Source: an uncultured Clostridia bacterium | GTDB lineage: Bacteria > Bacillota > Clostridia > Christensenellales > Borkfalkiaceae | Length of the DNA stretch: 36,367 bases | Assembly (NCBI GenBank): GCA_947630245.1 | Contig: CANRGR010000008.1 | Coordinates: forward strand, 1 to 36,367 | Direction of reading: 5' to 3' | Shown: piece after piece, positions 4,361-20,685 of the stretch | Position numbering within the stretch: the first letter of the stretch is position 1 | Layout: every line of letters begins with the position of its first letter | Position numbers and translations under genes: made by a program | The notes under the pieces: model-generated | The model's input: the letters and a program-made list of their open reading frames with translations, nothing else | Database searches by the model: none | What the model was told of the DNA's origin: nothing

Positions 4361-4362
4361 CC

Positions 4363-5613
4363 ATGAAAGAATATTTTGAAATCGCAAAGAAACTGTACGC
4401 CGCTTACGGCGTAGACGCCGAACAGGCGATCGAACGGCTCGCGGAGATTCCCGTATCCATCCATTGCTGGCAGGGCGATGACGTCATCGGCTTCGACGGA
4501 TCGGATTCGCTCAGCGGCGGGATTCAGACGACGGGCAACTATCCCGGCAGGGCGCGCACGCCCGAGGAGCTCATGGCGGATATCCGCTTCGCGTTCGGGC
4601 TCATCCCCGGGAAGAAGCGCCTCAACCTGCACGCGAGCTACGCCATTCTCGGCGCGGATCGGGGCAAAGTGGACCGCGACGGCTACACCTATCGGCACTT
4701 CGAGCCGTGGGTGAAGTTTGCAAAGGAGATCGGGCTCGACGGCATCGACTTCAATCCGACCTTCTTCGGACATCCCAAGATGAAGGACGGGCTCTCCCTG
4801 TCCTCGCCCGACGAGCCGACCCGCCGCTTCTGGGTGGAGCACGGCAAGCGCTGCATGGAGATTGCGGCGGAGCTCGGCAAGGCGTTCAACAAGCCCTGCC
4901 TCGTCAACATCTGGATCCCGGACGGCTATAAGGACGTTCCCGCAGACCGCCTCGGACCCCGTCTCCGCCTCAAAAAGTCTCTCGACGAGATTCTGGAACA
5001 TTACGACAGAGAGTGGGTGATTCCCGCCGTGGAGAGCAAGGTGTTCGGGATCGGGCTCGAAAGCTATACGGTCGGATCCAACGAGTTCTACCAGAACTAC
5101 GCCGCAAAGAAGAATATCTGCTGCCTGCTCGACAACGGGCACTATCATCCCCTCGAATACGTCAGCGACAAGATCCCCGCGCTTCTCGCCTTCTACGATA
5201 AGGTCGCGCTCCATGTCACGCGCGGCGTGCGCTGGGATTCGGATCACGTCGTTCTCTTGGAGGATGAGCTCAAAGAGATCGCAAAAGAGATCGTGCGCAA
5301 CGACGCGACAGAAAAGGTTCTGATCGGGCTCGACTACTTCGACGCGAGCATCAACCGGATTGCGGCATGGGTCACGGGCGCGCGCAACATGCAGAAGGCG
5401 CTCCTCTATGCGCTCCTCCTTCCCAACGCGAGAATGAAGGAACTCCAAGACAATGCGGACTTCACGGCGCTCATGAATCTCGGCGAAGAGGTCAAGACGC
5501 TTCCGCTCGGTGGGGTGTGGGACGAATATCTCGCGCGGACGCATACGGCGGGTTCGGATTGGTACAACGAAGTACGGAAATACGAGGAAAACGTGCTGAG
5601 TAAGAGAAATTGA
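4363..5613 (+). CDS. rhaA: L-rhamnose isomerase
   Basis: 416 aa, very close to the usual length of about 419. Converts L-rhamnose to L-rhamnulose, a Mn/Zn-dependent TIM-barrel enzyme of the cytoplasm. Diagnostic stretches are IHCWQGDDVIGFDG near the N-terminus, the LNLHASYAIL strand, HGKRCMEIAAELG, VNIWIPDGYKD, and the metal-site regions GLESYTVGSNEFYQNYA and LLDNGHYHP. The ATG at 4363 is preferred over 4357: GGAG (4351-4354) is 8 nt from 4363 but only 2 nt from 4357. It directly follows rhaB and feeds the kinase and the aldolase of the downstream microcompartment operon. An intrinsic terminator closes the operon. Confidence 0.96.
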   Translation: MKEYFEIAKKLYAAYGVDAEQAIERLAEIPVSIHCWQGDDVIGFDGSDSLSGGIQTTGNYPGRARTPEELMADIRFAFGLIPGKKRLNLHASYAILGADRGKVDRDGYTYRHFEPWVKFAKEIGLDGIDFNPTFFGHPKMKDGLSLSSPDEPTRRFWVEHGKRCMEIAAELGKAFNKPCLVNIWIPDGYKDVPADRLGPRLRLKKSLDEILEHYDREWVIPAVESKVFGIGLESYTVGSNEFYQNYAAKKNICCLLDNGHYHPLEYVSDKIPALLAFYDKVALHVTRGVRWDSDHVVLLEDELKEIAKEIVRNDATEKVLIGLDYFDASINRIAAWVTGARNMQKALLYALLLPNARMKELQDNADFTALMNLGEEVKTLPLGGVWDEYLARTHTAGSDWYNEVRKYEENVLSKRN

Positions 5614-6732: not shown

Positions 6733-6761
6733 TGGACAACAAAGAAATTGTGTGATAAAAT
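6733..6761 (+). promoter_or_regulatory. Promoter of the microcompartment operon
   Basis: TGGACA (6733-6738), 17-bp spacer, TAAAAT (6756-6761) with an extended -10 TG (TGATAAAAT). The upstream 120 bp is AT-rich and could act as an UP region. The leader to ackA is about 70 nt and can fold a weak hairpin (CGGGA...TCCCG, 6781-6809). No TATGTCASACATA element was seen here. Confidence 0.7.
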
Positions 6762-6837
6762 TGATAGCGGAATGAGAGTGCGGGAGTGGATTCTTGCATT
6801 CCGTTCCCGGAAAAAAGTCGGAAACCGGAGCGTGAAT

Positions 6838-8034
6838 ATGAAAATTCTTGTGGTCAACGCCGGAAGCTCGTCGCTGAAATACCAGCTCTTCGACATGGAT
6901 ACGGGATCCGTGCTTGCGAAGGGCAACTGCGAGCGCATCGGCATCGACGGAATGATCACCCATAAGTGTCCCGGGCGGGAGGACTTCCATGCAACGCCTG
7001 CCTTCCCGGATCACAGGGCGGCGATCGGATATGTGCTCGGACTGCTCACCGATCCCGAACGCGGCGTCATTGCGGACGTCGGGGAGATCGCGGCGGTCGG
7101 ACACCGCTTTGCCCACGGCGGGGAGAAGCTCAAAGCGTCCACCGTCCTCGGCGAGAAGGAGATCGCCTATCTCGAAAGCATTGTGGGGATCAACCCGCTG
7201 CACGGTCCGCCTGCGATCAGCGGGCTCAAAGCGTGCAGGGAAGTGATGCCGGATATCCCGCATGTCGGCGTGTTCGACACGTCGTACTACTCGGGGTTGG
7301 AGGAATACGCCTATCTCTATCCCATTCCCTACGAGCTGTACGAGAAATACCGCGTGAGAAAATACGGCTTCCACGGGACGTCCCACAGATACGTTGCGGG
7401 AAGAGCGGCGGAACTGCTCGGGAATCCCGGCGCGAAGATCATCACCTGCCATCTCGGGAACGGTTCGTCCATCACGGCGACGGTGAACGGCAGGGCGGTG
7501 GATACGTCGATGGGCTTCACCCCGCAGGACGGCGTGCCGATGGGGACGAGGAGCGGCGCGGTCGACCCGACCGTCGTCACCTACCTCATGAAGGAGGAAC
7601 ATCTGACGGCGGAGGAGACCGAAAAACTCCTCAATTCGAAATCGGGACTTTTGGGGATTTCGGGCGTTTCGAGCGACTGCCGCGACATCCGCGAAGCCGC
7701 CGCCGCGGGAAACCGCCGCGCACAGCTTGCGATGAAGATGCTCGTGCAAAGCGTGAAGAAGATCATCGGATCCTTCTATGCCGTCATGGACGGCGCGGAC
7801 GCGCTCGTGTTCACGGCGGGAATCGGCGAGAACGACAGGGAGCTGCGCTCCGAAGTCTGCTCGGGGCTCTCCGCACTCGGCATCGAAATCGACGAAACGG
7901 TCAATGCGACCTGCCCGCGCGGCGCGGTCGCGGAACTCACCCGGAAGGGGGCGCGCGTCAGAACGTTCGTCATTCCCACCAATGAGGAATACATGATCGC
8001 GCTCGACACCCAATCGCTTTCCAAGTCAAAATAA
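6838..8034 (+). CDS. ackA: Acetate/propionate kinase
   Basis: 398 aa, ASKHA kinase: converts propionyl-phosphate (or acetyl-phosphate) and ADP to the acid and ATP. The start at 6838 gives the canonical MKILVVNAGSSSLKYQLFD; GGAG lies 7 nt upstream. Other hallmarks: GHRFAHGG, KYGFHGTSHRYV, CHLGNGSSITA, DTSMGFTPQDGVPMGTRSG, and the C-terminal FTAGIGEND. It is the first gene of the microcompartment operon and is the substrate-level phosphorylation step after PduL. There is no amphipathic targeting helix at either end, consistent with a cytosolic location, as expected since ADP and ATP are outside the shell. Acetate versus propionate preference cannot be read from the sequence. Confidence 0.95.
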   Translation: MKILVVNAGSSSLKYQLFDMDTGSVLAKGNCERIGIDGMITHKCPGREDFHATPAFPDHRAAIGYVLGLLTDPERGVIADVGEIAAVGHRFAHGGEKLKASTVLGEKEIAYLESIVGINPLHGPPAISGLKACREVMPDIPHVGVFDTSYYSGLEEYAYLYPIPYELYEKYRVRKYGFHGTSHRYVAGRAAELLGNPGAKIITCHLGNGSSITATVNGRAVDTSMGFTPQDGVPMGTRSGAVDPTVVTYLMKEEHLTAEETEKLLNSKSGLLGISGVSSDCRDIREAAAAGNRRAQLAMKMLVQSVKKIIGSFYAVMDGADALVFTAGIGENDRELRSEVCSGLSALGIEIDETVNATCPRGAVAELTRKGARVRTFVIPTNEEYMIALDTQSLSKSK

Positions 8035-8066: not shown

Positions 8067-8816
8067 ATGAAATCTCCGTTTGAAATCAAAAAAGAAATCT
8101 GCGAAGTCGGTCACAAACTCTACGCGAAGAATTTCGTTGCGGCAAACGACGGCAACATCTCCGTGAAGATCAACGACAACGAGTTCTATTGCACGCCCAC
8201 GGGCGTGTCGAAGGGCTCGCTCACCCCGGATATGATCATCAAGGTCGACCGGGATGGGAACAAGATCGAGGGCAAGCTCAATCCCTCCTCCGAAATCAAG
8301 ATGCACATGCGCGTCTACCGCGACCGTCCCGACGTCAACGCGGTCGTCCATGCGCATCCGCCCGTTGCGACGGCGTTTACGGTTGCGGACATCAATCTCG
8401 ACCAGTACATTCTGCCCGAGGCGGTTCTCACGATCGGCGAAGTGCCCACCTGCGACTACGGCACGCCTTCGACGATGGAGATTCCCGATTCCCTCGAACC
8501 CTACATCCAGACGCACGACGCATTCCTGCTCCGCAACCACGGCGCGCTGACGGTCGGCTGCGACCTGACAAAGGCGTTCTTCATCATGGAAGAAGTGGAA
8601 TTCAACGCGATCATCTGCAAGCACGCGATGGAGCTCGGCGCGGTGCACGAGATTCCCAACAGCCAGCTCAAAAAACTCATGGAACTGCGCGAAAAACTGC
8701 ATCTTACGGGGCGTCATCCCGGACTCGAAATTGAGGAAGAACATCCCGCACAGCCCACGCAGGAAGCGCTCGTCGAGGCGATCACAAAGAGAGTTCTTGC
8801 CGCGCTCGGCAAGTGA
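8067..8816 (+). CDS. Class II aldolase (L-rhamnulose/L-fuculose-phosphate type) with encapsulation peptide
   Basis: 249 aa, aldolase class II/adducin family: Zn-dependent cleavage of a 1-phospho-ketose to DHAP and L-lactaldehyde. Family features are NDGNISVKI, TPTGVSKG, the catalytic-Glu region NPSSEIKMH, the Zn-site VVHAHPPVAT and LLRNHGALTVG. After the catalytic domain comes a linker and a C-terminal amphipathic helix (EALVEAITKRVLAALGK) that closely matches microcompartment encapsulation peptides. This is known for the GRM5-type loci that break down fucose and rhamnose. With rhaBA immediately upstream, rhamnulose-1-phosphate is the most likely substrate; the family resembles FucA more than RhaD, so both may be used. 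Confidence 0.92.
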   Translation: MKSPFEIKKEICEVGHKLYAKNFVAANDGNISVKINDNEFYCTPTGVSKGSLTPDMIIKVDRDGNKIEGKLNPSSEIKMHMRVYRDRPDVNAVVHAHPPVATAFTVADINLDQYILPEAVLTIGEVPTCDYGTPSTMEIPDSLEPYIQTHDAFLLRNHGALTVGCDLTKAFFIMEEVEFNAIICKHAMELGAVHEIPNSQLKKLMELREKLHLTGRHPGLEIEEEHPAQPTQEALVEAITKRVLAALGK

Positions 8817-8840: not shown

Positions 8841-10292
8841 ATGGCAATTAACTGGACGGACGCGCAGATCGAGGAAGTGGTGGCAACGGTCATCAAGAGC
8901 CTCGGCGCCGCCTCCGAGACCGGAAGCTGGGACGCCACGCAGTACCACGGCAGAAAGCTCATCGGTATTTTCGAGGACATGAACGACGCGATCGACGCGG
9001 CAACGGCGGGCTACAAGGCAATCCGCGCGATGTCGCTCGAAGAGCGGGAAAAAGTGATCGGCGCAATCCGCGATCTCTGCCGCAAGGAAGCGGCGGCAAT
9101 GGCGGAACTCGGCGTTGCCGAGACCAAGATGGGGCGCGTCGAGCACAAGACGGCAAAGCACATTCTTGTGGCGGATAAGACGCCCGGCACGGCGGACATC
9201 GTCGCGCAGGTCAAGACGGGGGACTACGGTCTCACGCTCACCGAAATGGCTCCCTTCGGGGTCGTGGGCAGCATCACGCCGAGCACGAACCCCTCGGAGA
9301 CCGTCCTCTGCAACAGCATCGGCATGGTTGCGGCGGGCAACGGCGTCGTGTTCAATCCCCACCCGAACGCGATTGCAACTTCCAACTATGCGGTGGACCT
9401 TGTCAACCGCGCCAGCGCTTCGGCGGGCGGACCGAAGGTGCTCGTCGCCTCTGTGGTGAAGCCCACGCTCGACACGGCGCAGATCATGTATCAGCATCCC
9501 GCGATCCGTCTCCTCGTCTGTACGGGCGGTCCCGGCGTGGTGAAGAGCGTGCTTTCGAGCGGCAAAAAGGCGATCGGCGCGGGCGCGGGGAACCCTCCCG
9601 TCATCGTCGACGACACGGCGGACGTGAGAAAGGCGGGCAAGGACATCATCGACGGTTGCAGTTTCGACAACAACCTGCCCTGCATTGCGGAGAAGGAAGT
9701 GTTTGCGTTCCGCAACATCGCGGACGAACTCATCGACTCCATGCTCCACAGCGGCGCGTACATGATTACGCACGAACAGGCGGACGCGCTGGCGAAGATC
9801 GTGCTTGTGGAATCCAAAAATCCCAAGACGGGAATCGTCAAAAAGATCGTCAGCCGCGAATGCGTCGGCAGAGACGCAAAGGTGCTCCTTGCGAAGATCG
9901 GCGTGACCGTCGGCGACGAGGTGCGCTGCATTATCTGCGAGACGGAATTTGAGCATCCCTTCGTGCAGAACGAGCTCATGATGCCGATTCTTCCCATCGT
10001 GCGGGTGAACGACATCGACGAGGCGATCGACCTTGCGGTCAAAGCGGAACACGGGTGCCGCCACACCGCGCACATGCACTCCAAGAACATCGACCATCTC
10101 ACGCGCTTTGCGCGGGCGGTCGAGACGACGATCTTCGTCAAGAACGCGCCCTCCTATGCGGGGATCGGGTTCGGCGGCGAGGGACATACGACGTTCACGA
10201 TCGCAGGTCCCACGGGCGAAGGACTGACGAGCGCGCGCAGCTTTACGAGATACCGCAGATGCGTGATGTCGGACAGCTTCCGCATTATATAA
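8841..10292 (+). CDS. pduP: CoA-acylating propionaldehyde dehydrogenase (PduP-like)
   Basis: 483 aa: oxidises propionaldehyde with CoA and NAD+ to propionyl-CoA inside the microcompartment. The ALDH fold is evident: SITPSTNPSETV, FNPHPNA, cofactor-loop region LLVCTGGPGVVKS, GAGNPPVIVDDTAD, and the catalytic Cys281 in NNLPCIAEKEV. The C-terminus carries TFTIAGPTGEG and SFTRYRRCV typical of PduP/EutE. The N-terminal 20 residues (TDAQIEEVVATVIKSLG) form an amphipathic helix, an encapsulation peptide, separated from the domain by a short linker. A strong SD (AAGGAGG) precedes it. Confidence 0.95.
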   Translation: MAINWTDAQIEEVVATVIKSLGAASETGSWDATQYHGRKLIGIFEDMNDAIDAATAGYKAIRAMSLEEREKVIGAIRDLCRKEAAAMAELGVAETKMGRVEHKTAKHILVADKTPGTADIVAQVKTGDYGLTLTEMAPFGVVGSITPSTNPSETVLCNSIGMVAAGNGVVFNPHPNAIATSNYAVDLVNRASASAGGPKVLVASVVKPTLDTAQIMYQHPAIRLLVCTGGPGVVKSVLSSGKKAIGAGAGNPPVIVDDTADVRKAGKDIIDGCSFDNNLPCIAEKEVFAFRNIADELIDSMLHSGAYMITHEQADALAKIVLVESKNPKTGIVKKIVSRECVGRDAKVLLAKIGVTVGDEVRCIICETEFEHPFVQNELMMPILPIVRVNDIDEAIDLAVKAEHGCRHTAHMHSKNIDHLTRFARAVETTIFVKNAPSYAGIGFGGEGHTTFTIAGPTGEGLTSARSFTRYRRCVMSDSFRII

Positions 10293-10311: not shown

Positions 10312-11505
10312 ATGGATATTTCGGCTTCTCAGGTGGAAAACATCGTCAGAAAAATCCTCGGCGAGATGGGAACGGGCGCGAAGAGCACGGACATTCCCAA
10401 GACGGCGAAGGTCGCGATGCTGACCGCCCCCAAGCATATCGAAGTCAAGGAATTCGAAATTCCCGCGCTTCGGGACGACGATATTCTCGTCAGAGTAGAA
10501 GGCTGCGGCGTCTGCGGAACCGACGTGCACGAATGGAAGGGCGATCCCTTCGGGATCATCCCCGTCACGCTCGGACACGAGGGCACGGGCGAGATCATCT
10601 ATCTCGGCAAGAACATCAAGACGGACACGGCGGGCAATCCCATTAAAGTTGGGGATAAGCTCGTCACCAGCGTCATCAGCTGCGGCGAGTGCTACATCTG
10701 CCGCAACCATCCCGCGAACACGAATCTCTGCGACAAACAGGGCGTGTTCGGGCTCATTCCCCACAGCGACGCACAGCCGCTCACGGGTTGGTTCTCCACC
10801 CATCTTCTCATCCGCGGGAAGGGAGCGACTTACTTCGTCGTCAACGATCTCGACCTTCAAGAGAGAATGCTCCTCGAACTTGCGTGCGTGTGCGTGCATG
10901 CGTTGAAGCGCGCGAACGGGACGGGATTGCTGAATTTCAACTCCAAAGTGCTCGTGCAGGGGCTCGGTCCCGTCGGGCTCGTCATGATCAGCGTGCTCCG
11001 CGCGGCGGGCATCAACCACATCATCGCGATCGACGGAACGCCCAAGCGGCTCGAAATGGCAAAGAAACTCGGCGTCAAGACCGTGATCAACTTCCGCGAA
11101 GTGACGACGCTCGAAGAGCGCGTGAAGCTCGTCAAGAGCGTGGCGAACGGCGTCGGAGCGGACTTTGCGTTCCAGTGCACGGGCGCGCCCGCTGCCGCCA
11201 AAGACATCTATGAGTACATCCGCCGCGGCGGCGGTCTCTGCGAGATGGGCTTCTTCGTCAACAACGGAGAGTACAACGTCAATCCCCATTTCGCAATGTG
11301 CAACAAGGAGATCAATCTCGTCGGCTCGTGGGACTATTCCGCGGACGACTATCCAACGACGATGGCGTTCCTCCGTCAGGCGCGCGAGATGAACATTCCC
11401 ATCAAGGATCTCATCACGCACACCTTCCCGCTCGACAAACTCAACGAGGCGATGGAAGTCAACGTGGCGCAGGCGGGGATCAAGATCTGCTACGTCGCGC
11501 AGTAA
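10312..11505 (+). CDS. Zn-dependent medium-chain alcohol dehydrogenase with encapsulation peptide
   Basis: 397 aa MDR-family dehydrogenase. Residues 1-19 (ISASQVENIVRKILGEM) form an N-terminal targeting helix like those on PduP and PduL. The catalytic zinc motif GCGVCGTDVHEW (Cys68) and GHEGTGEI follow; the structural zinc loop is CGECYICRNHPANTNLC. The Rossmann region is VQGLGPVGLVMISVL. The expected role is to regenerate NAD+ by reducing propionaldehyde to propanol. No fucO-type lactaldehyde reductase is present in the window, so this enzyme may also reduce lactaldehyde to 1,2-propanediol (inference). In B12-dependent pdu operons the corresponding PduQ is an iron-type ADH; the zinc MDR type is found in several glycyl-radical loci. 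Confidence 0.92.
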   Translation: MDISASQVENIVRKILGEMGTGAKSTDIPKTAKVAMLTAPKHIEVKEFEIPALRDDDILVRVEGCGVCGTDVHEWKGDPFGIIPVTLGHEGTGEIIYLGKNIKTDTAGNPIKVGDKLVTSVISCGECYICRNHPANTNLCDKQGVFGLIPHSDAQPLTGWFSTHLLIRGKGATYFVVNDLDLQERMLLELACVCVHALKRANGTGLLNFNSKVLVQGLGPVGLVMISVLRAAGINHIIAIDGTPKRLEMAKKLGVKTVINFREVTTLEERVKLVKSVANGVGADFAFQCTGAPAAAKDIYEYIRRGGGLCEMGFFVNNGEYNVNPHFAMCNKEINLVGSWDYSADDYPTTMAFLRQAREMNIPIKDLITHTFPLDKLNEAMEVNVAQAGIKICYVAQ

Positions 11506-11539: not shown

Positions 11540-11875
11540 ATGGCGCTTGGCATGATAGAAGTTTTCGGATTCGCGACGGCGATCGTCGTGGCGGATGCGA
11601 TGGTCAAGGCGGCGGACGTCGAGCTCGTTGCGATTGATAAAAACAAACCCGCGGCGGGGGACGCGGCAAGAGTGCCCCTCGTCATGGTGGTGAAGGTGGA
11701 AGGGTCGGCGGCGGCAGTGGAAGCGTCGATCGCGGCGGGGAAAGCCGAAGCCGAAAAACGGGAGCTCTACATCACCCACAAGGTGATCGCAAGGCAGAGC
11801 GAGGACATCGAGTGGTTTGCCCATCTCAACGCCCTCGGAAGAGACAAACTCAGAAATAATGAAAATCAAAAATAA
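11540..11875 (+). CDS. BMC-H shell protein with extended pore loop
   Basis: 111 aa, one BMC domain: [30 protein letters not shown] is the usual first half of the fold, and [20 protein letters not shown] the second. It differs from the other shell proteins in the pore-facing loop: the short KIGSG turn of PduA is replaced by a long [16 protein letters not shown] loop. The C-terminus extends past the domain ([17 protein letters not shown]). Hexamer-forming proteins line shell facets and their loop sets pore size and charge. The first of four consecutive BMC-H genes; SD AAGGAG. Confidence 0.93.
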
Positions 11876-11892
11876 TTAAGGAGATTAAAATT

Positions 11893-12168
11893 ATGTTGGA
11901 AGCATTGGGTATGGTTGAGACCAGAGGTCTCGTGGCGGCGATCGAAGCGGCAGATGCGATGGTCAAGGCGGCGAACGTCGTTTTGATCGGCAGCGAGAAG
12001 ATCGGCAGCGGGCTCGTGAGCGTCATGGTGCGCGGCGATGTCGGCGCGGTGAAAGCGGCGGTCGAAGCGGGCGGCGCGGCAGCGACGGCGCTCGGCGAAG
12101 TCGTGGCGACGCACGTCATTCCCCGTCCTCATTCCGACGTCGAAAAACTTCTTCCCACGATCAAGTAA
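11893..12168 (+). CDS. pduA: BMC-H shell protein, PduA-like (copy 1)
   Basis: 91 aa single BMC-domain hexamer protein. The core [20 protein letters not shown], the pore loop SEKIGSGLV and the tail [16 protein letters not shown] are nearly those of PduA/PduJ, whose small polar pore admits 1,2-propanediol and retains aldehyde. Start at 11893 (AAGGAG about 9 nt upstream); the paralogue at 12521 lacks the extra Leu2. It differs from that paralogue at four positions over 90 residues. Confidence 0.96.
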
Positions 12169-12185
12169 TTTTCGCGCGAGGGTTT

Positions 12186-12458
12186 ATGAACGCAATCGCA
12201 TTACTGGAAGTGCAAGCTATGGTTGCCGCAATCACCGGGCTTGACGCGATGGTAAAGGCGGCGGACGTGAAGCTGATCCACGTCGAAAAGCGCCTCGGCG
12301 GCAGACTTGTCACGGTCGTCGTCGAAGGCGAGGTTTCGGCTGTGACGGCGGCGGTTCAGGCCGGTGCCGCCGCCGCGGCAAAGGTAGGCAAGGTCAAATC
12401 GTGCGAGGTGATTGCGCGCCCGCACCCCGACGTCATGAGATTTCTGACGACGGGCTGA
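12186..12458 (+). CDS. BMC-H shell protein, divergent pore
   Basis: 90 aa single BMC domain ([28 protein letters not shown]). The pore region reads VEKRLGGRLVTVVVEG instead of KIGSGLV, and the C-terminal segment is SCEVIARPHPDVMRFLTTG. It is inserted between the two almost identical PduA-like copies. The SD is weak (GAGGG, 4 nt from the ATG), suggesting a lower dose than its neighbours. The distinct pore may pass another substrate or cofactor; this is inference from the loop only. Confidence 0.94.
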   Translation: MNAIALLEVQAMVAAITGLDAMVKAADVKLIHVEKRLGGRLVTVVVEGEVSAVTAAVQAGAAAAAKVGKVKSCEVIARPHPDVMRFLTTG

Positions 12459-12467
12459 CGGATTCAG

Positions 12468-12483
12468 CGGAGCGGTCGCTCCG
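12468..12483 (+). other. Small intercistronic palindrome
   Basis: CGGAGCG-GT-CGCTCCG, a compact hairpin in the 62-nt gap between the third and fourth BMC-H genes. No T-run follows. It may stabilise or process the mRNA of the highly expressed fourth gene. Confidence 0.4.
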
Positions 12484-12520
12484 ATGACGAAATAAGAAAA
12501 TAATACAGGAGGAACATGTC

Positions 12521-12793
12521 ATGGAAGCATTGGGTATGGTTGAGACCAGAGGTCTCGTCGCGGCGATTGAGGCGGCGGATGCAATGGTCAAGGCGGCGAA
12601 TGTCATTCTGATCGGCAGCGAGAAGATCGGCAGCGGACTCGTGAGCGTCATGGTGCGCGGCGATGTCGGCGCGGTGAAAGCGGCAGTCGAGGCAGGCGGC
12701 AGAGCAGCGACCGCGCTCGGCGAAGTCATTGCGACGCACGTCATTCCCCGTCCTCACGCAGACGTTGAAAAACTTCTTCCCACGATCAAGTAA
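12521..12793 (+). CDS. pduA: BMC-H shell protein, PduA-like (copy 2)
   Basis: 90 aa, a near-duplicate of the 11893 gene: same [20 protein letters not shown] core and KIGSG pore loop. Differences are Val to Ile twice, Ala to Arg in [10 protein letters not shown], and Ser to Ala before DVEKLLP. A strong AGGAGG SD lies 8 nt upstream. Duplicated major facet proteins (like PduA/PduJ) are normal for microcompartments; here the nucleotide similarity is high enough to suggest recent duplication or gene conversion. Confidence 0.96.
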
Positions 12794-12892: not shown

Positions 12893-13546
12893 ATGGAAAT
12901 CACAAGTGCACAGATCACGGAAATCGTCAAGAAAGTGCTTGCGGGCATGGAGGACGGCGCAGGTTGCGAGGACAATCTCGTCCCCGTCGGCGTCTCCAAC
13001 CGCCATATCCATCTGAACAAGGCGGATCTTGCGACGCTCTTCGGAGAGGGTTACGAACTCACGCCCCTCAAAGATCTGTCGCAGCCCGGGCAATACGCCT
13101 GCAAGGAACTTCTGACTCTGATCGGTCCCTCCCTGCGTCCCATTGAGAACGTGCGCGTGCTCGGTCCGGTGAGAAGCAAATCTCAGGTGGAGATCTCGGC
13201 GACCGATTCCTATGTGCTCAAAGTGAAACCGCCCGTGCGCGAATCGGGCAATATCGCGGATTCCGCGGGGATCACAATCGTCGGTCCACGGGGAGTCGTC
13301 ACTCTGAAAGAGGGATGTATCATTGCAAACAGGCACATCCACATGTCGCCTGCGGACGCCGCGCGGTTCGGCGTGAAGGACGGGGACACGGTCACGGTGG
13401 ATGTCGACGGAAAGCGGCGCACGCGCTGGTACGACGTGCAGATCCGCGTCAGTCCCGACTTCCGTCTTGAAATGCATGTCGATACCGACGACGCGAACGC
13501 GGCGGGGATCGGCAACGGCTTCAAAGTGAGGGTCGTGAAGGAGTAA
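12893..13546 (+). CDS. pduL: Phosphate propanoyltransferase PduL
   Basis: 217 aa from the ATG at 12893 (AAGGA SD); the track's 12824 start would run through the stem-loop. It transfers the propionyl group from CoA to phosphate, recycling CoA inside the shell. Two beta-barrel halves each carry the zinc-binding signature: VGVSNRHIHLNKADL and IIANRHIHMSPADA. Residues 1-18 (ITSAQITEIVKKVLAGM) form an encapsulation peptide joined by an acidic linker. It works between PduP (propionyl-CoA) and AckA (propionyl-phosphate). Confidence 0.95.
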   Translation: MEITSAQITEIVKKVLAGMEDGAGCEDNLVPVGVSNRHIHLNKADLATLFGEGYELTPLKDLSQPGQYACKELLTLIGPSLRPIENVRVLGPVRSKSQVEISATDSYVLKVKPPVRESGNIADSAGITIVGPRGVVTLKEGCIIANRHIHMSPADAARFGVKDGDTVTVDVDGKRRTRWYDVQIRVSPDFRLEMHVDTDDANAAGIGNGFKVRVVKE

Positions 13547-13549
13547 GCG

Positions 13550-13798
13550 ATGCTGAGAGGAATCATCAGAGGAAACATCGTCTCTACGAGGAAGCAGGAA
13601 TCGCTTGTGGGCGCGAAGTTCATGGAAGTGGAAATCATGGAAAACGGCGAATTGACGGGGAAATACATCATCGCCATCGACAGCGTCGGCGCGGGCATCG
13701 GCGAAACGGTGCTCATCACCGTGGGGAGCCCCGCGCGCCTCGCACTGCACAACAGGGATGTTCCCACGGACGCGGTCATCGTGGGTATTGTGGATTGA
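13550..13798 (+). CDS. eutN: BMC-P vertex pentamer protein (EutN/CcmL family)
   Basis: 82 aa, the usual length for the family. Features are the N-terminal RGNIVSTRKQESLVGAKFMEVE, the VGAGIGETVLITVGSPARLAL core, and VPTDAVIVGIVD at the end. Pentamers close the twelve vertices of the shell. It is the only BMC-P gene in the window, so it must supply all vertices unless others lie elsewhere. AAGGAG inside the end of pduL serves as SD; three bases separate the two genes. Confidence 0.95.
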   Translation: MLRGIIRGNIVSTRKQESLVGAKFMEVEIMENGELTGKYIIAIDSVGAGIGETVLITVGSPARLALHNRDVPTDAVIVGIVD

Positions 13799-13838: not shown

Positions 13839-15158
13839 ATGGAAATCGACAAACTCGGAAAATTGATGAAGGATTGCGGGGTCGTAGGCGCGGGCGGCGC
13901 AGGATTTCCCTCCTACGCCAAACTTGCCGGCGGGGCGGACACGCTTCTCGTGAACGGCTCGGAGTGCGAGCCTCTGCTCTATACCGACTATTACCTTCTC
14001 AAAACCGGAATGCCCGAAGTGCTCGCGGGCATCCGTGAACTGCTCGAAGCTCTCGGGATTTCCCGTGCGTTTCTGTGCATCAAAGAGCATACCGCAAAGC
14101 GGTTGCGGCTTTCGGACGGCGAAACACTCGCCGAAAAGGTCGCGGTAAAGACGCTTCCCGACGTCTATCCGATGGGGGACGAGATCAGTCTCATCTATCA
14201 GGCGACGGGGAGAATCGTAAAGCCGGGGTGTCTCCCCATCACCGCGGGCGTGATCGTCTACAACGTCGAGACGGTCTGCAATATCGCCGCGGCGTGCAAC
14301 GGGACGCCCGTCACAATGAAATGGCTGACGGTCGGAGGGGACATCCCCGAGGCGATCGTCGTGCGCGTGCCGGTGGGAACGCCGGTCACGGATCTGTTTG
14401 AAAAATACGGAATCACTGTCCCCGAGGACCACACCGTGCTCGACGGCGGTCCCTCGATGGGAAAGATTATAGACGAACGGGCGGTCGTCACCAAGACGAC
14501 GAAGGGAATCCTCATCCTGCCCGACGAGACGGAGGCGATCCAGTCCAAACTGCTCGACGCAAAGCGTTCGGTTGCGCGGGCGGAGACCGCCTGCTGTCAA
14601 TGCACGCACTGCACGGACATGTGTCCGCGCGCCCTGCTCGGATATCCGATCGAGCCGCACAAGCTCGTGCGCACGGCGCGGCAGGCGGTGGAGATCACGC
14701 CCGAAATGGCGATTACCGCGAGCCTGTGCTGCGGTTGCGGCGTCTGTACGAGCGTCGCCTGCTGCCAGGAGATCTCGCCCAAAGCGGTCATCGACTATTA
14801 CAAGGGCATTCTTGCAAAGAACAAACTCAAATACATCTCGAAAGAGGAGCCGAAGGCGGAACCCGAGCGGGAATACCGCATGATTCCCTCCGAGCGGTGG
14901 GCGAAGTCGCTCGGCGTGGGACGGTTCGACCGCGTGCCCGTCTTTCGCGGCGAGGACAGAGAGTTTTCCCGCGTGGAGGTCAGGCTCTCCCAGCATATCG
15001 GCGCGCCGAGCAAGGCGATCGTCGGGGCGGGGGAGATGGTCGAAGCGGGACAGCGGATCGCCGATAGCGCCGAGGGACTCTCTCTTCCGCAGTATGCGCC
15101 GATCGCGGGTCAGGTGAAACTCGTCACCGAAAAAAAGATCGTCATCGACAGGGGGTAA
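13839..15158 (+). CDS. pduS: PduS-like electron-transfer flavoprotein (RnfC-like)
   Basis: 439 aa. N-terminal NADH/FMN-binding Rnf-type domain with GVVGAGGAGFPSYAKL and NGSECEPLLYTD, then an SLBB-like region, then two 4Fe-4S sites: CCQCTHCTDMCP and CCGCGVCTSVAC. A C-terminal barrel-like domain ends near VTEKKIVIDRG. PduS of B12-dependent operons is a corrin reductase, but here there is no cobalamin enzyme. A role in moving electrons across the shell or oxidising NADH is more likely, perhaps together with the PduT homologue encoded just after it. GGAG lies 9 nt before the start. Confidence 0.92.
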   Translation: MEIDKLGKLMKDCGVVGAGGAGFPSYAKLAGGADTLLVNGSECEPLLYTDYYLLKTGMPEVLAGIRELLEALGISRAFLCIKEHTAKRLRLSDGETLAEKVAVKTLPDVYPMGDEISLIYQATGRIVKPGCLPITAGVIVYNVETVCNIAAACNGTPVTMKWLTVGGDIPEAIVVRVPVGTPVTDLFEKYGITVPEDHTVLDGGPSMGKIIDERAVVTKTTKGILILPDETEAIQSKLLDAKRSVARAETACCQCTHCTDMCPRALLGYPIEPHKLVRTARQAVEITPEMAITASLCCGCGVCTSVACCQEISPKAVIDYYKGILAKNKLKYISKEEPKAEPEREYRMIPSERWAKSLGVGRFDRVPVFRGEDREFSRVEVRLSQHIGAPSKAIVGAGEMVEAGQRIADSAEGLSLPQYAPIAGQVKLVTEKKIVIDRG

Positions 15159-15161
15159 GCA

Positions 15162-15707
15162 ATGTTCAGATCAGTCGGAGTCATCGAACTGAAAAATGTA
15201 CCGAAGGGCGTGGAGGCGACGGACGACGCGCTCAAAAGCGCGGGCGTGGAGCTTGTCTCCGCCCATCCTTCCTGTCCCGGGAAGTATGAAATCATCCTCA
15301 CGGGCTCGATCTCCAATGTCACCGCGTCCGTCAATCACGTCACGGAAAAATTCGAAAACTATGTGATTGATTCCTCCGTCATGGGCAGAATCGACGAACA
15401 GGTCATCACGGCGCTGTTCGGGACACAGAAAGAGGCAAAGAAGGGTGCGCTCGGGCTCATCGAGACGTTCTCGGCGGCGAGCTGCATCAAGGCGTCCGAC
15501 CTTGCGGTCAAGACGGCGCGCGTGGAGATCTTCGATCTCCGCGTCTCGCGCGGGCTCGGCGGCAAAGGCGTCGTGCTCCTCACGGGCGAAGTGGGGGACG
15601 TCACGGCGGCGGTCGAAGCGGGCGCAAATTACGCAAAGGGGCTCGGAATGCTCTCGGCAAGTTCGGTCATTCCCGCGCCGCATGCCGATCTTTGGGATCA
15701 GCTTTAA
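15162..15707 (+). CDS. pduT: BMC-T shell protein, PduT-like, with pore Fe-S cysteine
   Basis: 181 aa with two BMC domains (about 1-90 and 95-181), forming a trimeric pseudohexamer. Cys38 in the loop HPSCPGKYEI occupies the place of the cysteine that holds a 4Fe-4S cluster at the three-fold axis of PduT. This supports electron passage through the shell, and the preceding gene is the pduS homologue that would be its partner. The second domain (GLIETFSAASCIKASDLAVK...GGKGVVLLTGEVGDV) is typical. It starts three bases after the pduS stop, so translation is likely coupled. Confidence 0.93.
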   Translation: MFRSVGVIELKNVPKGVEATDDALKSAGVELVSAHPSCPGKYEIILTGSISNVTASVNHVTEKFENYVIDSSVMGRIDEQVITALFGTQKEAKKGALGLIETFSAASCIKASDLAVKTARVEIFDLRVSRGLGGKGVVLLTGEVGDVTAAVEAGANYAKGLGMLSASSVIPAPHADLWDQL

Positions 15708-15730: not shown

Positions 15731-18262
15731 ATGGAACAAATCAAATTTGTGATTCAGAAGAGCGCGCGGATCGGCAAGCTCATCGACGATCTCTACGCCA
15801 AGATGCCGGAGATCGAGTCCGCACGCGGGATCCTCGTCACGGAGAGCTACCGGAGCACGGAGGATCTTCCCATCATCCGCCGCAGAAGCGCGGCGTTTGC
15901 GCACATTCTCAAAAATATTCCGATCATCATCCGCGACGGCGAACTCATCGTCGGAAGCGCGACCATCGCGCCGCGCGGCTGTCAGGTCTTTCCCGAATAT
16001 TCCTATGAATGGCTGGAAGCGGAATTCGATACGGTTGCGACCCGCGCCCCCGACCCGTTCTACATCAGCGAAAAGACAAAACAGGAGCTCCGCGCCGTCT
16101 ATCCCTATTGGAAGGGAAAGACGTGCAGTGACCTTGCCCGGACGAACATGTCCCCCGAGGCGTATGCGGCGTTCACCGTGCACGGCATGTACACGCCCGG
16201 GAACTACTTCTACAACGGAATCGGGCATGTCAACGTGGACTATGCAAAGGTGCTCCGCGTCGGATACCGCGGGATCATCGACGAGGCGAAGGAAGCGCTC
16301 GCCTCGCTCACCGTCTGCAATCCCGAATATGTGCGCCGCCACAATTTCCTCACGGCGGTCGTCGAGAGCTGCGAAGCCGTGATCGGCTATGCCAATCGCT
16401 ACGCCGTTCTCGCGCGCGACATGGCGAGAAAGGAAGCGAACGCAACGCGGCGGGCGGAACTCAAAGAGATTGCCTCCGTCTGCGCCCGCGTGCCGGAGAA
16501 TCCCGCGCGCAACTTCCGCGAGGCATGCCAGAGCTTCTGGTTCATCCAGCTTTTGCTCCAAATCGAATCGAGCGGACATTCCATCTCGCCCGGCAGATTC
16601 GACCAATACATGTATCCCTATTATAAAAAGGATATGGACGAGGGTAAGATCACGCGGGAACAGGCGCAGGAACTGCTCGACTGTATCTGGGTCAAACTCA
16701 ACGACATCAACAAGTGCCGTGACGCGGCGTCTGCGGACGGATTCGCGGGCTACGGCATGTTCCAGAATCTCATCGTCGGCGGTCAGGACGTCCACGGCAT
16801 GGACGCGACCAACGATCTGTCTTTTATGTGTATCGAAGCGGCGATGCACGTCCCGCTTCCCCAACCGTCGCTCTCCATCCGCGTCTGGAACGGCTCCCCG
16901 CAGGATCTTCTCCTCAAAGCGGCGGCTCTGACGCGCATCGGCACGGGACTGCCCGCCTATTACAACGACGAGATCATCATTCCTTCGATTATGGCGCGCG
17001 GGCTCACGCTCGAGGACGCGCGGGATTATTGCATTATCGGCTGCGTCGAGCCGCAGAAGGGCGGCAAGACGGACGGCTGGCACGACGCCGCGTTCTTCAA
17101 CATGTGCCGCGCGATGGAGATGGTTTTCACAAACGGCATGGACAGGGGCGTCAGAATCGGACCGGAGACGGGCGACGTCACAAAGATGACGACCTTCGAA
17201 GAAGTGTTCGAGGCGTACAAGACCCAGCAGACGCATTTTATCCGTCTCCTCGTCAATGCGAACAACGCGATCGACGCCGCGCATGCGGTGCGCTGTCCGC
17301 TTCCTTTCGAATCCTGTATGGTGCAGGACTGCATCGGGCGCGGAATGTCTCTCCAAGAGGGCGGCGCGATCTATAATTTCACGGGACCTCAGGGCTTCGG
17401 TATCGCGAACAACACCGACGGACTTCTTGCGATCAAACAACTTGTCTTTGAAGAGAAGAAGGTGACGATGGCGGAATTCCGCGACGCGATGGCGGCGAAC
17501 TTCGGCTACGGATTGAAGGGCGCCGCGGCGGAGCGGGTGACGGGCGAGATCGCCGCACAGCTCCGCAAACAGGGCGTGAACGTGGACGAGAAGGTCGTCA
17601 AGGTCATCTATGACGAAGTCACGTCGGCGGGCGGGCTCGATCCCAAGTTGAAGGCGAGGTATCGCGAGATCAAACGTCTCATCGACGAGACCTGTCCCAA
17701 ATACGGCAACGACATCCACGACGTCGACATGTTCGCCCGCGAAGTGGGCAACACCTACACGAAGGAGATGGAAAAATACCGCAATGTGCGCGGCGGCACC
17801 TTCCAGGCGGGGCTCTATCCCGTCTCGGCGAACGTCCCGCTCGGCGCGCAGACGGGCGCAACGCCCGACGGCAGGCTCGCATACACCCCGATCGCGGACG
17901 GCATCGGTCCCGCTTCGGGCAGAGACGTGAAGGGTCCGACCGCGACGGTCAACTCCGTTGCGAAGCTCGAACAGGGAATCGCCTCCAACGGGACACTGCT
18001 CAACCAGAAATTCCATCCTTCCGCACTGGCGGGGATGGCGGGACTTACCAAGTTCGTCGCGCTCATCCGCTCCTATTTCGATCAAAAGGGCATGCACATG
18101 CAGTTCAACGTCGTCACGCGCGAAACGTTGCTCGACGCGCAGAAGCATCCCGAAAAATACAAGACGCTCGTCGTGCGCGTGGCGGGATACAGCGCGCTCT
18201 TCACAACGCTCTCCCGCTCTCTCCAAGACGACATCATCAACCGCACGCAGCAGGGATTCTGA
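15731..18262 (+). CDS. B12-independent propanediol dehydratase (glycyl radical enzyme)
   Basis: 843 aa from the ATG at 15731 (AAGGGG SD); the 15692 start in the track overlaps the pduT end. PFL-like ten-strand barrel: dehydrates 1,2-propanediol to propionaldehyde by radical chemistry without cobalamin. The thiyl site is Cys438 with Glu440 in IIGCVEPQKGG; the glycyl radical is Gly819 in VRVAGYSALFTTLSRSL near the C-terminus. Aldolase, rhamnose genes and PduP/PduL around it favour propanediol over glycerol or choline. No extra targeting helix is seen at either end, so it may be encapsulated through partners. It is the largest gene of the operon and the one that defines the pathway. Confidence 0.95.
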   Translation: MEQIKFVIQKSARIGKLIDDLYAKMPEIESARGILVTESYRSTEDLPIIRRRSAAFAHILKNIPIIIRDGELIVGSATIAPRGCQVFPEYSYEWLEAEFDTVATRAPDPFYISEKTKQELRAVYPYWKGKTCSDLARTNMSPEAYAAFTVHGMYTPGNYFYNGIGHVNVDYAKVLRVGYRGIIDEAKEALASLTVCNPEYVRRHNFLTAVVESCEAVIGYANRYAVLARDMARKEANATRRAELKEIASVCARVPENPARNFREACQSFWFIQLLLQIESSGHSISPGRFDQYMYPYYKKDMDEGKITREQAQELLDCIWVKLNDINKCRDAASADGFAGYGMFQNLIVGGQDVHGMDATNDLSFMCIEAAMHVPLPQPSLSIRVWNGSPQDLLLKAAALTRIGTGLPAYYNDEIIIPSIMARGLTLEDARDYCIIGCVEPQKGGKTDGWHDAAFFNMCRAMEMVFTNGMDRGVRIGPETGDVTKMTTFEEVFEAYKTQQTHFIRLLVNANNAIDAAHAVRCPLPFESCMVQDCIGRGMSLQEGGAIYNFTGPQGFGIANNTDGLLAIKQLVFEEKKVTMAEFRDAMAANFGYGLKGAAAERVTGEIAAQLRKQGVNVDEKVVKVIYDEVTSAGGLDPKLKARYREIKRLIDETCPKYGNDIHDVDMFAREVGNTYTKEMEKYRNVRGGTFQAGLYPVSANVPLGAQTGATPDGRLAYTPIADGIGPASGRDVKGPTATVNSVAKLEQGIASNGTLLNQKFHPSALAGMAGLTKFVALIRSYFDQKGMHMQFNVVTRETLLDAQKHPEKYKTLVVRVAGYSALFTTLSRSLQDDIINRTQQGF

Positions 18263-18273
18263 TCCGAGGGATT

Positions 18274-19056
18274 ATGGCATATCAAGGCAAAGGCAGAATT
18301 TTCAATATTCAGCGCTTCTCGATCCACGACGGTCCGGGAATCCGTACCATCGTGTTTTTCAAGGGCTGTTATATGCGCTGTGCCTGGTGCTGCAACCCCG
18401 AATCGCAGGAATACGGGATCGAGACGATCGTCGAAAACGGAAAGGAAAAGACGGTGGGGCGGGACGTGACCGTGGAGGAGATCATGCCCGAATTGCTTTC
18501 GGACGCGATCTTTTACCGCCGTTCCGGGGGCGGGATTACGCTCTCGGGCGGGGAATGCCTTGCCCAGCACGAGTTTGCGCGCGATCTGCTCGAAGCCTGT
18601 AAAAACGAGGGACTGCATACGGCGGTCGAATCGACGGCGAACGCGCCCTTCGAAAAAATCCGTGCGATTCTTCCCTTTCTCGATCTCTATCTCATGGACG
18701 TCAAGCACATGGACAGCGCGAAGCACCGCGAATATACGGGGGTCGGAAACGAACTCATCCTCGCAAACGCGCGGAAGATCGCGGAGAGCGGGGTGGAGCT
18801 CATCATCCGCACGCCCGTGATCCCGGGCTTCAACGATACCGAGGGAGAGATCCGCGCGATTTCCCGCTTTGCGGCGTCCCTTCCGGGCGTGAAGGAGCAC
18901 CACTTGCTCCCGTATCACCGCCTCGGACAGGACAAATATGCGGGGCTCGGAAGATCGTATGCGCTCGACGGCGTGGAACCGCCCACAAAAGAACGGATGG
19001 AGTACTTACTTTCATGCGCCGAGACGAGCGGGCTGCGATGCCAGATCGGCGGATAA
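18274..19056 (+). CDS. Glycyl radical enzyme activating enzyme (radical SAM)
   Basis: 260 aa. Generates the glycyl radical on the dehydratase using SAM and a 4Fe-4S cluster bound by C32, C36 and C39 (GCYMRCAWC), preceded by the family signature IHDGPGIRTIVFF. The SAM-contact motif SGGGITLSGGE and the DVKHMD strand are present. The Cys-rich ferredoxin-like insert found in many dehydratase activases (two extra clusters) is absent: NPESQEYG passes straight to the next helix. It is therefore a compact, PFL-activase-like type. Directly downstream of its substrate gene, as usual. Confidence 0.95.
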   Translation: MAYQGKGRIFNIQRFSIHDGPGIRTIVFFKGCYMRCAWCCNPESQEYGIETIVENGKEKTVGRDVTVEEIMPELLSDAIFYRRSGGGITLSGGECLAQHEFARDLLEACKNEGLHTAVESTANAPFEKIRAILPFLDLYLMDVKHMDSAKHREYTGVGNELILANARKIAESGVELIIRTPVIPGFNDTEGEIRAISRFAASLPGVKEHHLLPYHRLGQDKYAGLGRSYALDGVEPPTKERMEYLLSCAETSGLRCQIGG

Positions 19057-19067
19057 GGGAGGATTCA

Positions 19068-19427
19068 ATGGAACTCAAAGAAAAAATGCGCATCATACAG
19101 GAGCTCGTCCCCGGCAAGCAGGTCACGCTCTGCCACATCATCGCCAACCCCGACGACGTGCTCTATACCAAGCTCGGGCTCGATCCCAAGACCGACTATT
19201 CGCGCAGTGCGATCGGCGTGCTTACGATCAGCCCCTGCGAGAGCGCGGTCATCGCGGCGGACATCGCCTTGAAGGCGTCCAACGCCGAAGTCGGATTTGT
19301 GGACAGATTCACGGGCACGCTCATCATCTCGGGCTCGGTCTCGGCAGTCGAAGCCGCGTTTACGGCGATCCGCGAATATGTGATCAATAAGCTCGGCTAC
19401 ACCTGCTGCGAACTGACAAGAACCTGA
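19068..19427 (+). CDS. pduU: PduU/EutS-type circularly permuted BMC-H shell protein
   Basis: 119 aa from the ATG at 19068 (GGGAGGA SD); the track start 19014 overlaps the activase. N-terminal RIIQELVPGKQVTLCHIIANP is the signature of the permuted BMC-H group, whose N-terminal strands form a beta-barrel capping the hexamer pore. It continues AIGVLTISPCESAVIAADIALKAS and GFVDRFTGTLIISGSVSAVEAA. Minor facet protein that may contact cargo or the GTPase encoded next. Confidence 0.94.
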   Translation: MELKEKMRIIQELVPGKQVTLCHIIANPDDVLYTKLGLDPKTDYSRSAIGVLTISPCESAVIAADIALKASNAEVGFVDRFTGTLIISGSVSAVEAAFTAIREYVINKLGYTCCELTRT

Positions 19428-19459
19428 GCGACGGGGCAGTTCACGGACGGGGTACCGAC

Positions 19460-19897
19460 ATGAAGAAGATCATTCTGATCGGCCGCGTTGCGGCGGGCAA
19501 GACCACGCTCACGCAGGCGTTGCGCGGCGAGGAGATCCACTACTTCAAGACGCAGTACATCAATTATCTCGATACGATCATCGACACGCCGGGCGAGTAC
19601 ACCGAGCTTCGGCAGACGAGCGGAGCGCTGGCGCTCTATGCCTATGAGGCGGACGTCGTCGGGCTCGTGCTCTCCGCAAACGAACCGTATTCCATCTTTT
19701 CGCCCTGCATCACGAGCCTCGTCAACCGCGAGGTGATCGGGATCGTGGCGGGGATTGACAAACCCGACGCCAACGTCGAACGCGTTTCCCGTTGGTTGCG
19801 GCTTGCGGGGTGCAAGAAGATCTTCCCCGTGAGCGCGGTGACGGGCGAGGGACTTTCGGATATCATTGCCTATCTCGAAGAGGAGGGCAAAAGATGA
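19460..19897 (+). CDS. pduV: EutP/PduV-like small GTPase
   Basis: 145 aa P-loop GTPase. P-loop GRVAAGKTT (residues 8-16), switch II DTPGEY, and GIDKPD in place of the NKxD base-recognition motif; PVSAVTGEGL is the G5-like segment. PduV has been reported to associate with the microcompartment surface and to influence its movement; the EutP group has been described as having acetate kinase-like activity. The stop overlaps the ParA start by ATGA, so the GTPase and the ATPase are translationally coupled. Confidence 0.92.
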   Translation: MKKIILIGRVAAGKTTLTQALRGEEIHYFKTQYINYLDTIIDTPGEYTELRQTSGALALYAYEADVVGLVLSANEPYSIFSPCITSLVNREVIGIVAGIDKPDANVERVSRWLRLAGCKKIFPVSAVTGEGLSDIIAYLEEEGKR

Positions 19898-20685
19898 GCC
19901 TTACAAAAGTGATCTCCTTTGCCAACAACAAGGGCGGAAGCGGAAAGACGACGACATGTTCCAACGTCGGCTGTGCGCTCTCCATGCTCGGCAAGCGCGT
20001 GCTCATGATCGACGGGGATATGCAGCTCAATCTCACCATCTCTTACTTCGACGAGGACACCGCGCTCGGATTTGCCAAGAGCGGAAAAAACATTCTCGCC
20101 GCGGTCAAGGAGGAGCGCGATCTCGGGGAATATGTCGTTCCCACGAGATTCGAGGGACTCGATATGGTCACGTCGTCCTCCCTCATGAGCGGGATCGAGT
20201 TCGAACTCTTTCCCAAATGGCAGCGCGAATTTGTGCTTTCCAAGTGCCTCGAACCCGTCAAGGCGCGGGGGACGTACGACTACATCCTCATCGACGCGCC
20301 GCCCACGCTCGGCGGCTGGGTGATGAATATCCTCTGTGCGTCGGACGACGTCGTCATTCCCGTCGAAGCCAGCCCGTGGGGGCTCTTCGGACTTGCCAAT
20401 ATGTTTGACTTCATCTCGCAGGCAAAGCGGCTCGCGCCGCGGATGGAGATCCTCGGGATCGCCGTCACGAAGGCGGACGAGCGGAAAAAATATTTCAAGC
20501 AGACCCTCGAAACGCTGAAAGGGTTGGAGCAGACGCGGATGTTCGAGAACTATATCCGCGTGGACAGCGCGATCGAATGGTCGCAGGACAGCAGCTGTCC
20601 CGTTGTCGCCTATAAAAAGACGAGCCGTAGCGCCGTCGAATATAGTAATCTTACAAAGGAGATCATGAAGTATGCCGATCGGTAA
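19894..20685 (+). CDS. ParA/McdA-like P-loop ATPase in the microcompartment operon
   Basis: 263 aa from the ATG at 19894 (GAGGAGG SD), overlapping pduV by ATGA; the track's 19792 start lies inside pduV. A deviant Walker A with the signature lysine, NNKGGSGKTTT (K13), the Walker A' LMIDGDMQLNLT and the Walker B YILIDAPPTLGG identify the ParA/Soj/McdA branch. Dimers of such ATPases bind DNA non-specifically and move or space plasmids, chromosomes, chemoreceptors or carboxysomes. No parB, parS or replication gene is near. Position inside the operon before the terminator, and a tiny partner gene overlapping its 3' end, suggest a role in placing the microcompartment, by analogy with McdA. Confidence 0.9.
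   Translation: MSLTKVISFANNKGGSGKTTTCSNVGCALSMLGKRVLMIDGDMQLNLTISYFDEDTALGFAKSGKNILAAVKEERDLGEYVVPTRFEGLDMVTSSSLMSGIEFELFPKWQREFVLSKCLEPVKARGTYDYILIDAPPTLGGWVMNILCASDDVVIPVEASPWGLFGLANMFDFISQAKRLAPRMEILGIAVTKADERKKYFKQTLETLKGLEQTRMFENYIRVDSAIEWSQDSSCPVVAYKKTSRSAVEYSNLTKEIMKYADR

Follow-up and report, generated by a model that had tools for sequence, protein, structure and literature searches.

A PduS/PduT pair conserved in microcompartment loci with and without a glycyl radical enzyme, and its possible role in the oxidation of luminal NADH

What the corrin reductase PduS does in B12-free microcompartments has been a question since 2014. The same question is raised by a 36,367-nucleotide stretch of DNA (hereafter, the window) from an uncultured clostridial lineage, in which a PduS-like and a PduT-like ORF occupy positions 13839–15707, exactly as originally predicted, next to a glycyl radical enzyme (GRE). 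For this pair, the original prediction offered two roles, namely oxidation of NADH across the shell or supply of electrons to the GRE activase. The genes of the locus are given below in the order in which they occur.

3062–5613, + strand: rhamnulokinase and L-rhamnose isomerase, substrate supply
6748–8034, + strand: acetate/propionate kinase
8067–8816, + strand: class II aldolase of the fuculose/rhamnulose-phosphate type (PF00596, 165 bits)
8841–10292, + strand: CoA-acylating aldehyde dehydrogenase (AldDH), predicted producer of NADH in the lumen (NF011927, 669 bits, over the cut-off)
10312–11505, + strand: Zn-type alcohol dehydrogenase, putative lactaldehyde reductase (sub-cut-off matches to Zn-dependent MDR families)
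11540–12793, + strand: four BMC-H shell proteins (11540–11875, 11893–12168, 12186–12458 and 12521–12793), none with the GrpU motif
12893–13546, + strand: PduL phosphotransacylase
13550–13798, + strand: BMC-P vertex protein
13839–15158, + strand: PduS-like flavoprotein (Nuo51/FMN domain, weak SLBB, 4Fe-4S dicluster C252/255/258/262 and C297/300/303/308, C-terminal RnfC_N barrel)
15162–15707, + strand: PduT-like tandem BMC-T shell protein with Cys38 in SCPGKY (profile and structure matches, alignment)
15734–18262, + strand: glycyl radical 1,2-propanediol dehydratase of the GRM5 type (structure matches, motifs; extra stretch at about 591–650)
18274–19056, + strand: GRE activase, a radical SAM protein of 260 aa without a ferredoxin insert (alignment)
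19014–19897, + strand: EutS-like BMC-H and EutP/PduV-like protein
19759–20682, + strand: ParA-like ATPase (stop-to-stop frame; same place in relatives)

The PduS-like ORF encodes 439 aa and is separated from the PduT-like ORF by 3 bases. Matches to PF01512 (118 bits), Fer4_17 (34 bits) and a C-terminal RnfC_N domain (42 bits) lie above their cut-offs, and an SLBB match placed between the FMN and dicluster domains is weak (E-value, 0.035) and under its cut-off; this is the domain order expected of PduS, with SLBB only weakly represented. Both 4Fe-4S motifs that had been claimed for the protein were found, as C252-x2-C255-x2-C258-x3-C262 and C297-x2-C300-x2-C303-x4-C308, the two tetracysteine motifs of PduS, and all eight ligand positions are Cys in 83 of the 83 aligned homologues. 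Besides these ligands, Cys43 is also invariant (83/83), and Cys253 is found in 79/83. The protein shares an FMN/NADH domain, a dicluster ferredoxin domain and a barrel-sandwich domain with RnfC of the Rnf complex, and matches RnfC structures with an E-value of 2.5e-38 (7zc6_C). However, its barrel-sandwich domain is C-terminal, whereas that of RnfC is N-terminal, so that the RnfC_N part aligns out of order (a permutation), and its score is below the rnfC cut-off.

The PduT-like ORF (181 aa) contains two BMC domains, and the PDB entries that it matches best are those of tandem BMC shell proteins, PduT among them (E-values, 2e-36 to 1e-30). Cys38, the residue proposed to hold the cluster, pairs without gaps with the cysteine of the PduT-like chain 3pac that corresponds to the PduT pore cysteine, as expected of a PduT-type tandem BMC-T protein. 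It is Cys in 81/81 homologues, while the neighbouring position 37 is variable; the conservation of this residue and of the PduS ligand cysteines is well above chance. Judged by its profile score, which is under the NCBIfam TIGR02526 equivalog cut-off (107.8 vs. 250.3 bits), the protein is PduT-like and not a strict PduT equivalog.

The adjacent dehydratase is indeed a GRE, as had been stated. Its nearest structures, 5i2a and 5i2g, belong to the diol dehydratase of Roseburia inulinivorans and are matched over the full length (1205 bits), and the motifs GCVEP and RVAGYSA are located at positions 436 and 815, respectively. The alignment to glycerol dehydratase 1r8w breaks at 590, and the insertion at about 591–650 is a predicted encapsulation insert. 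The activase aligns with PFL-AE from end to end and lacks the ferredoxin insert of about 70 aa. Among the activases compared, the insert region of those from GRM5 loci is 47 aa long with 2–3 Cys, versus about 90 aa with 8–9 Cys in other GRE activases. The activase of L066, an otherwise GRM5-like PduS/PduT locus, differs from all the other GRM5 activases compared in that it carries a ferredoxin insert, of 90 aa with 9 Cys.

By its gene content, the locus is assigned to GRM5, a published type of rhamnose microcompartment. The window combines an insertion-bearing diol-dehydratase GRE, an insert-less activase, a PF00596 aldolase, a putative lactaldehyde-reductase-type Zn-alcohol dehydrogenase, PduS and PduT, and the G-x-C-P-Q-N/H (GrpU) motif is absent from its shell proteins. 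The same class II aldolase, AldDH, Zn-alcohol dehydrogenase, PduL, PduS, PduT, diol-dehydratase GRE and insert-less activase, and the same lack of the GrpU motif, are described for the GRM5 systems of Roseburia inulinivorans and Clostridium phytofermentans (Ferlez 2019; Axen 2014). No difference in kind was found between them and the window, which adds an uncultured clostridial host, rhamnose genes and a ParA-like ATPase. Ferlez, Sutter and Kerfeld found PduS and PduT in 57/57 GRM5 loci and GrpU in none, and activases without the insert only in GRM5; the same authors suggested that electrons leave through PduT and also that NADH drives the reduction of the activase (PMC6325248). The export idea has been repeated for Bilophila (PMC8667426) and Listeria (PMC8547011). 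The pduS gene of Clostridium ljungdahlii has been deleted as a demonstration of gene editing, and the accessible portion of that paper gives no redox phenotype (PMC12016505). The pair is a standard module of the GRM5 rhamnose microcompartment, of which the window holds a new instance, and both roles proposed for it were already in print.

Searches of the source genome (99 contigs, about 94% complete) gave no match to the B12 diol dehydratase family PF02286 or to EutB, no BMC domain genes beyond the locus, no further strong match to RnfC and no clear case of a free-standing flavodoxin; no PduO is found in the window. The premise that PduS/PduT occur here without a cobalamin-dependent dehydratase thus holds, although it is not new. 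The locus is accessory, with a PduS of this level of similarity found in 6/103 genomes of the genus, while GREs that are 81–83% identical occur both within the family and in a second one; together, these sequence data suggest horizontal spread. Compared with the B12-dependent Pdu systems of Citrobacter, Salmonella and E. coli, the pair of the window has the same domain order, both tetracysteine motifs, Cys38 and adjacent genes (E. coli locus L112). The x4 spacing of the second PduS motif is also common to the window and the E. coli Pdu homologue, and the identity between the two pairs is 36.8% for PduS and 35.4% for PduT. Unlike those systems, the window has a PduT under the equivalog cut-off and neither a cobalamin enzyme nor PduO.

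The contribution of the present analysis is a comparison of the same pair in company with a GRE, a B12 dehydratase or neither, which asks whether PduS/PduT follow the radical enzyme; the collected loci provide a clean comparative handle on the role of the pair. Of 61 PduS-keyed loci, four (L027, L029, L068 and L071) are cut off and could not be judged, and a GRE lies beside PduS/PduT in 46 of the remaining 57. In L067 and L070 (Clostridium methylpentosum), PduCDE, PduG and PduO are encoded in cis with the pair. In L057, L064 and L065, EutS and EutP directly follow PduT in place of the GRE and activase, and PduC is encoded in trans; the genomes of L057 and L064 have no GRE match at an E-value of 1e-50. 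Four Moorella loci contain aldolase, AldDH, PduS and PduT; no GRE, PduC or EutB was found in these loci, two of whose stretches stop just past PduT, and no PduC in the three genomes searched.

A GRE-keyed search of 396 genomes of the order detected PduS in all of the 14 genomes positive for a GRM5 GRE, and in 32/396 genomes overall. Among the 18 PduS genomes without such a GRE, PduC is found in one and EutB in three, in two of which it lies beside the PduS locus and in the third on a different contig; a further genome has EutB fragments, again on a contig other than that of PduS, and neither PduC nor EutB was matched in the remainder. Their loci follow the order PduL, BMC-P, AldDH, PduS, PduT, BMC-H, and no GRE was matched within the stretch. 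In the group formed by L133–L146 (except L135), L149 and L150, no GRE, PduC or EutB was found, and a DeoC-type aldolase is present in at least nine. L146 carries DeoC twice and RpiB, the signature of SPU microcompartments; it is the only locus without a radical enzyme that was scanned gene by gene, and the rest may hold other signature enzymes. The SPU (DeoC/RpiB) microcompartments served as a natural control, since they have the PduS–PduT pair with AldDH and PduL, as in the window, but no GRE and no lactaldehyde pathway. L147 and L148, labelled "none" in the PduS tree, are EUT loci by EutB search, and the pair is present in both. In that tree, a quick one with long branches flagged, the B12 loci are nested inside a GRM5-like clade of 57 rows, within which the dehydratase type was exchanged several times; counted across the entire tree, no fewer than four changes in B12 status are required by the starred branches.

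Four contexts thus retain the pair with its full set of ligand cysteines: with a GRE, with a B12 diol dehydratase in cis or in trans, with EutB, and where no radical enzyme was found, a gene absence in a draft genome being weak evidence for any single case. Wherever a locus is sufficiently complete to be judged, the NAD-dependent CoA-acylating AldDH accompanies the pair. In loci without a radical enzyme, the AldDH gene immediately precedes that of PduS, and in nearly all of these loci no alcohol dehydrogenase that could recycle NADH is found in the stretch. Since the pair is unchanged with a GRE, a B12 dehydratase or no dehydratase, it is unlikely to exist for the dehydratase. The SLBB match, a possible signal of a cobalamin site, was found in 12/18 GRE loci and 19/21 other loci, a difference too weak to be read further.

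Independence from the dehydratase, AldDH as the partner, and published potentials that run downhill favour the first of the two roles originally proposed, and it is reasonably, if not strongly, likely that PduS/PduT oxidise luminal NADH and export the electrons across the shell. PduS would be anchored through PduT at the luminal face of the shell and would oxidise the NADH made by the encapsulated AldDH, passing electrons through FMN and two 4Fe-4S clusters to a 4Fe-4S cluster held by the three Cys38 residues in the pore of the PduT trimer. From there, they may reach a cytosolic acceptor, with NAD+ being regenerated in the lumen whenever lactaldehyde reduction and propionaldehyde oxidation fall out of step. 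The genes, motifs, conservation, context and independence from dehydratase chemistry are observed here; FMN, the two clusters, NADH oxidation, PduS–PduT binding and the potentials are carried over by analogy from papers on Pdu homologues. Cluster occupancy in the proteins of the window, the direction of flow and the acceptor are inferred. The potentials descend towards the shell (NADH, −320 mV; PduS, −150 mV; PduT, +99 mV); those of PduS and PduT come from the Citrobacter Pdu homologues, the E. coli pair being 35–37% identical to that of the window (PMC2982820, PMC6325248). Within GRM5, lactaldehyde reductase and AldDH should already balance luminal NADH, so a vent is not stoichiometrically required and would serve mismatch, not the main flux.

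The second role originally proposed, in which PduS, with or without PduT, uses NADH to reduce the activase within the shell, either directly or via flavodoxin or ferredoxin, and so replaces the missing insert, is unlikely but has some chance of being correct. This published hypothesis (PMC6325248) agrees with the insert-less GRM5 activases, with the lack of a clear stand-alone flavodoxin in the source genome, and with the presence of PduS in 14/14 GRM5-GRE genomes against 32/396 overall (P about 2e-17; by genera, 7/7, P about 4e-7; both uncorrected for relatedness). However, this association, complete in the sample, rests on few lineages. Insert-less activases coincide with PduS in every genome checked, yet they are essentially one group, and the coincidence therefore does not show dependence. 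The radical-SAM cluster has a potential of about −450 to −550 mV, for the reduction of which the PduS flavin at −150 mV and PduT at +99 mV are far too high. Moreover, the pair is equally conserved in loci without GRE or activase, the GRE microcompartment locus L131 has no PduS (its genome, G071, has only an RnfC-like match), L066 combines PduS/PduT with an insert-bearing activase, and GRE and activase pairs lie away from PduS in L103, L105, L107, L118 and L120. A combined proposal appears rather doubtful: as a general module of aldehyde microcompartments, PduS/PduT would vent NADH whatever the radical enzyme, and in GRM5 it would also have become the reductant of an activase that has no ferredoxin domain.

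It is improbable that the pair works in reverse and imports cytosolic electrons into the lumen (PduT to PduS to NAD+) for the reduction of lactaldehyde or propionaldehyde. RnfC relatives have an NAD(H) site in their complexes, RnfC-containing complexes can run in either direction, and the lactaldehyde reductase of the GRM5 lumen needs NADH. That NADH is already made by AldDH, the published +99 mV of PduT disfavours uphill transfer to NAD+, and the pair is kept in loci where no alcohol dehydrogenase was found. NADH venting is best separated from service to a GRE or to a B12 enzyme in those loci that have neither a radical enzyme nor an alcohol dehydrogenase close by.

The possibility that the pair is a relic of a B12-type ancestor was raised by Axen in 2014 (PMC4207490), and, since PduT tiles the shell regardless, the pair could also be mainly a structural anchor without a redox role; with Cys38 kept in 81/81 and the PduS ligands in 83/83 homologues, which is unexpected for a relic or a tile, and with PduS in every GRM5-GRE genome, both are quite improbable. 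PduS of Pdu systems is a cobalamin reductase (PMC2982820), but it is very improbable that the one in the window still provides reduced corrinoid to a B12 enzyme whose gene lies elsewhere, given the lack of PF02286 and EutB matches in the source genome and of PduO in the window.

Several minor observations were made in the course of the comparison. Full-length PduO (adenosyltransferase and HbpS-like domain) occurs in the GRE-bearing or GRM5-like loci L066, L072, L081 and L069; in the L069 genome, no match to a B12 diol dehydratase was obtained. A conserved protein of about 220 aa is encoded between PduL and BMC-P in nine PduS loci without a radical enzyme (L133, L137, L138, L139, L141, L142, L144, L146 and L149). 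Its tested members have no Pfam match, and its identification as the DeoC aldolase, which is encoded elsewhere in the locus, was rejected. In L103, L105, L107, L110, L118 and L120, GRE and activase are encoded as a two-gene satellite at a distance from the shell genes, and PduS lies elsewhere in the genome. Finally, the ParA-like ATPase gene that follows EutP in the window (19759–20682) is conserved in relatives, and its product possibly positions the microcompartment.
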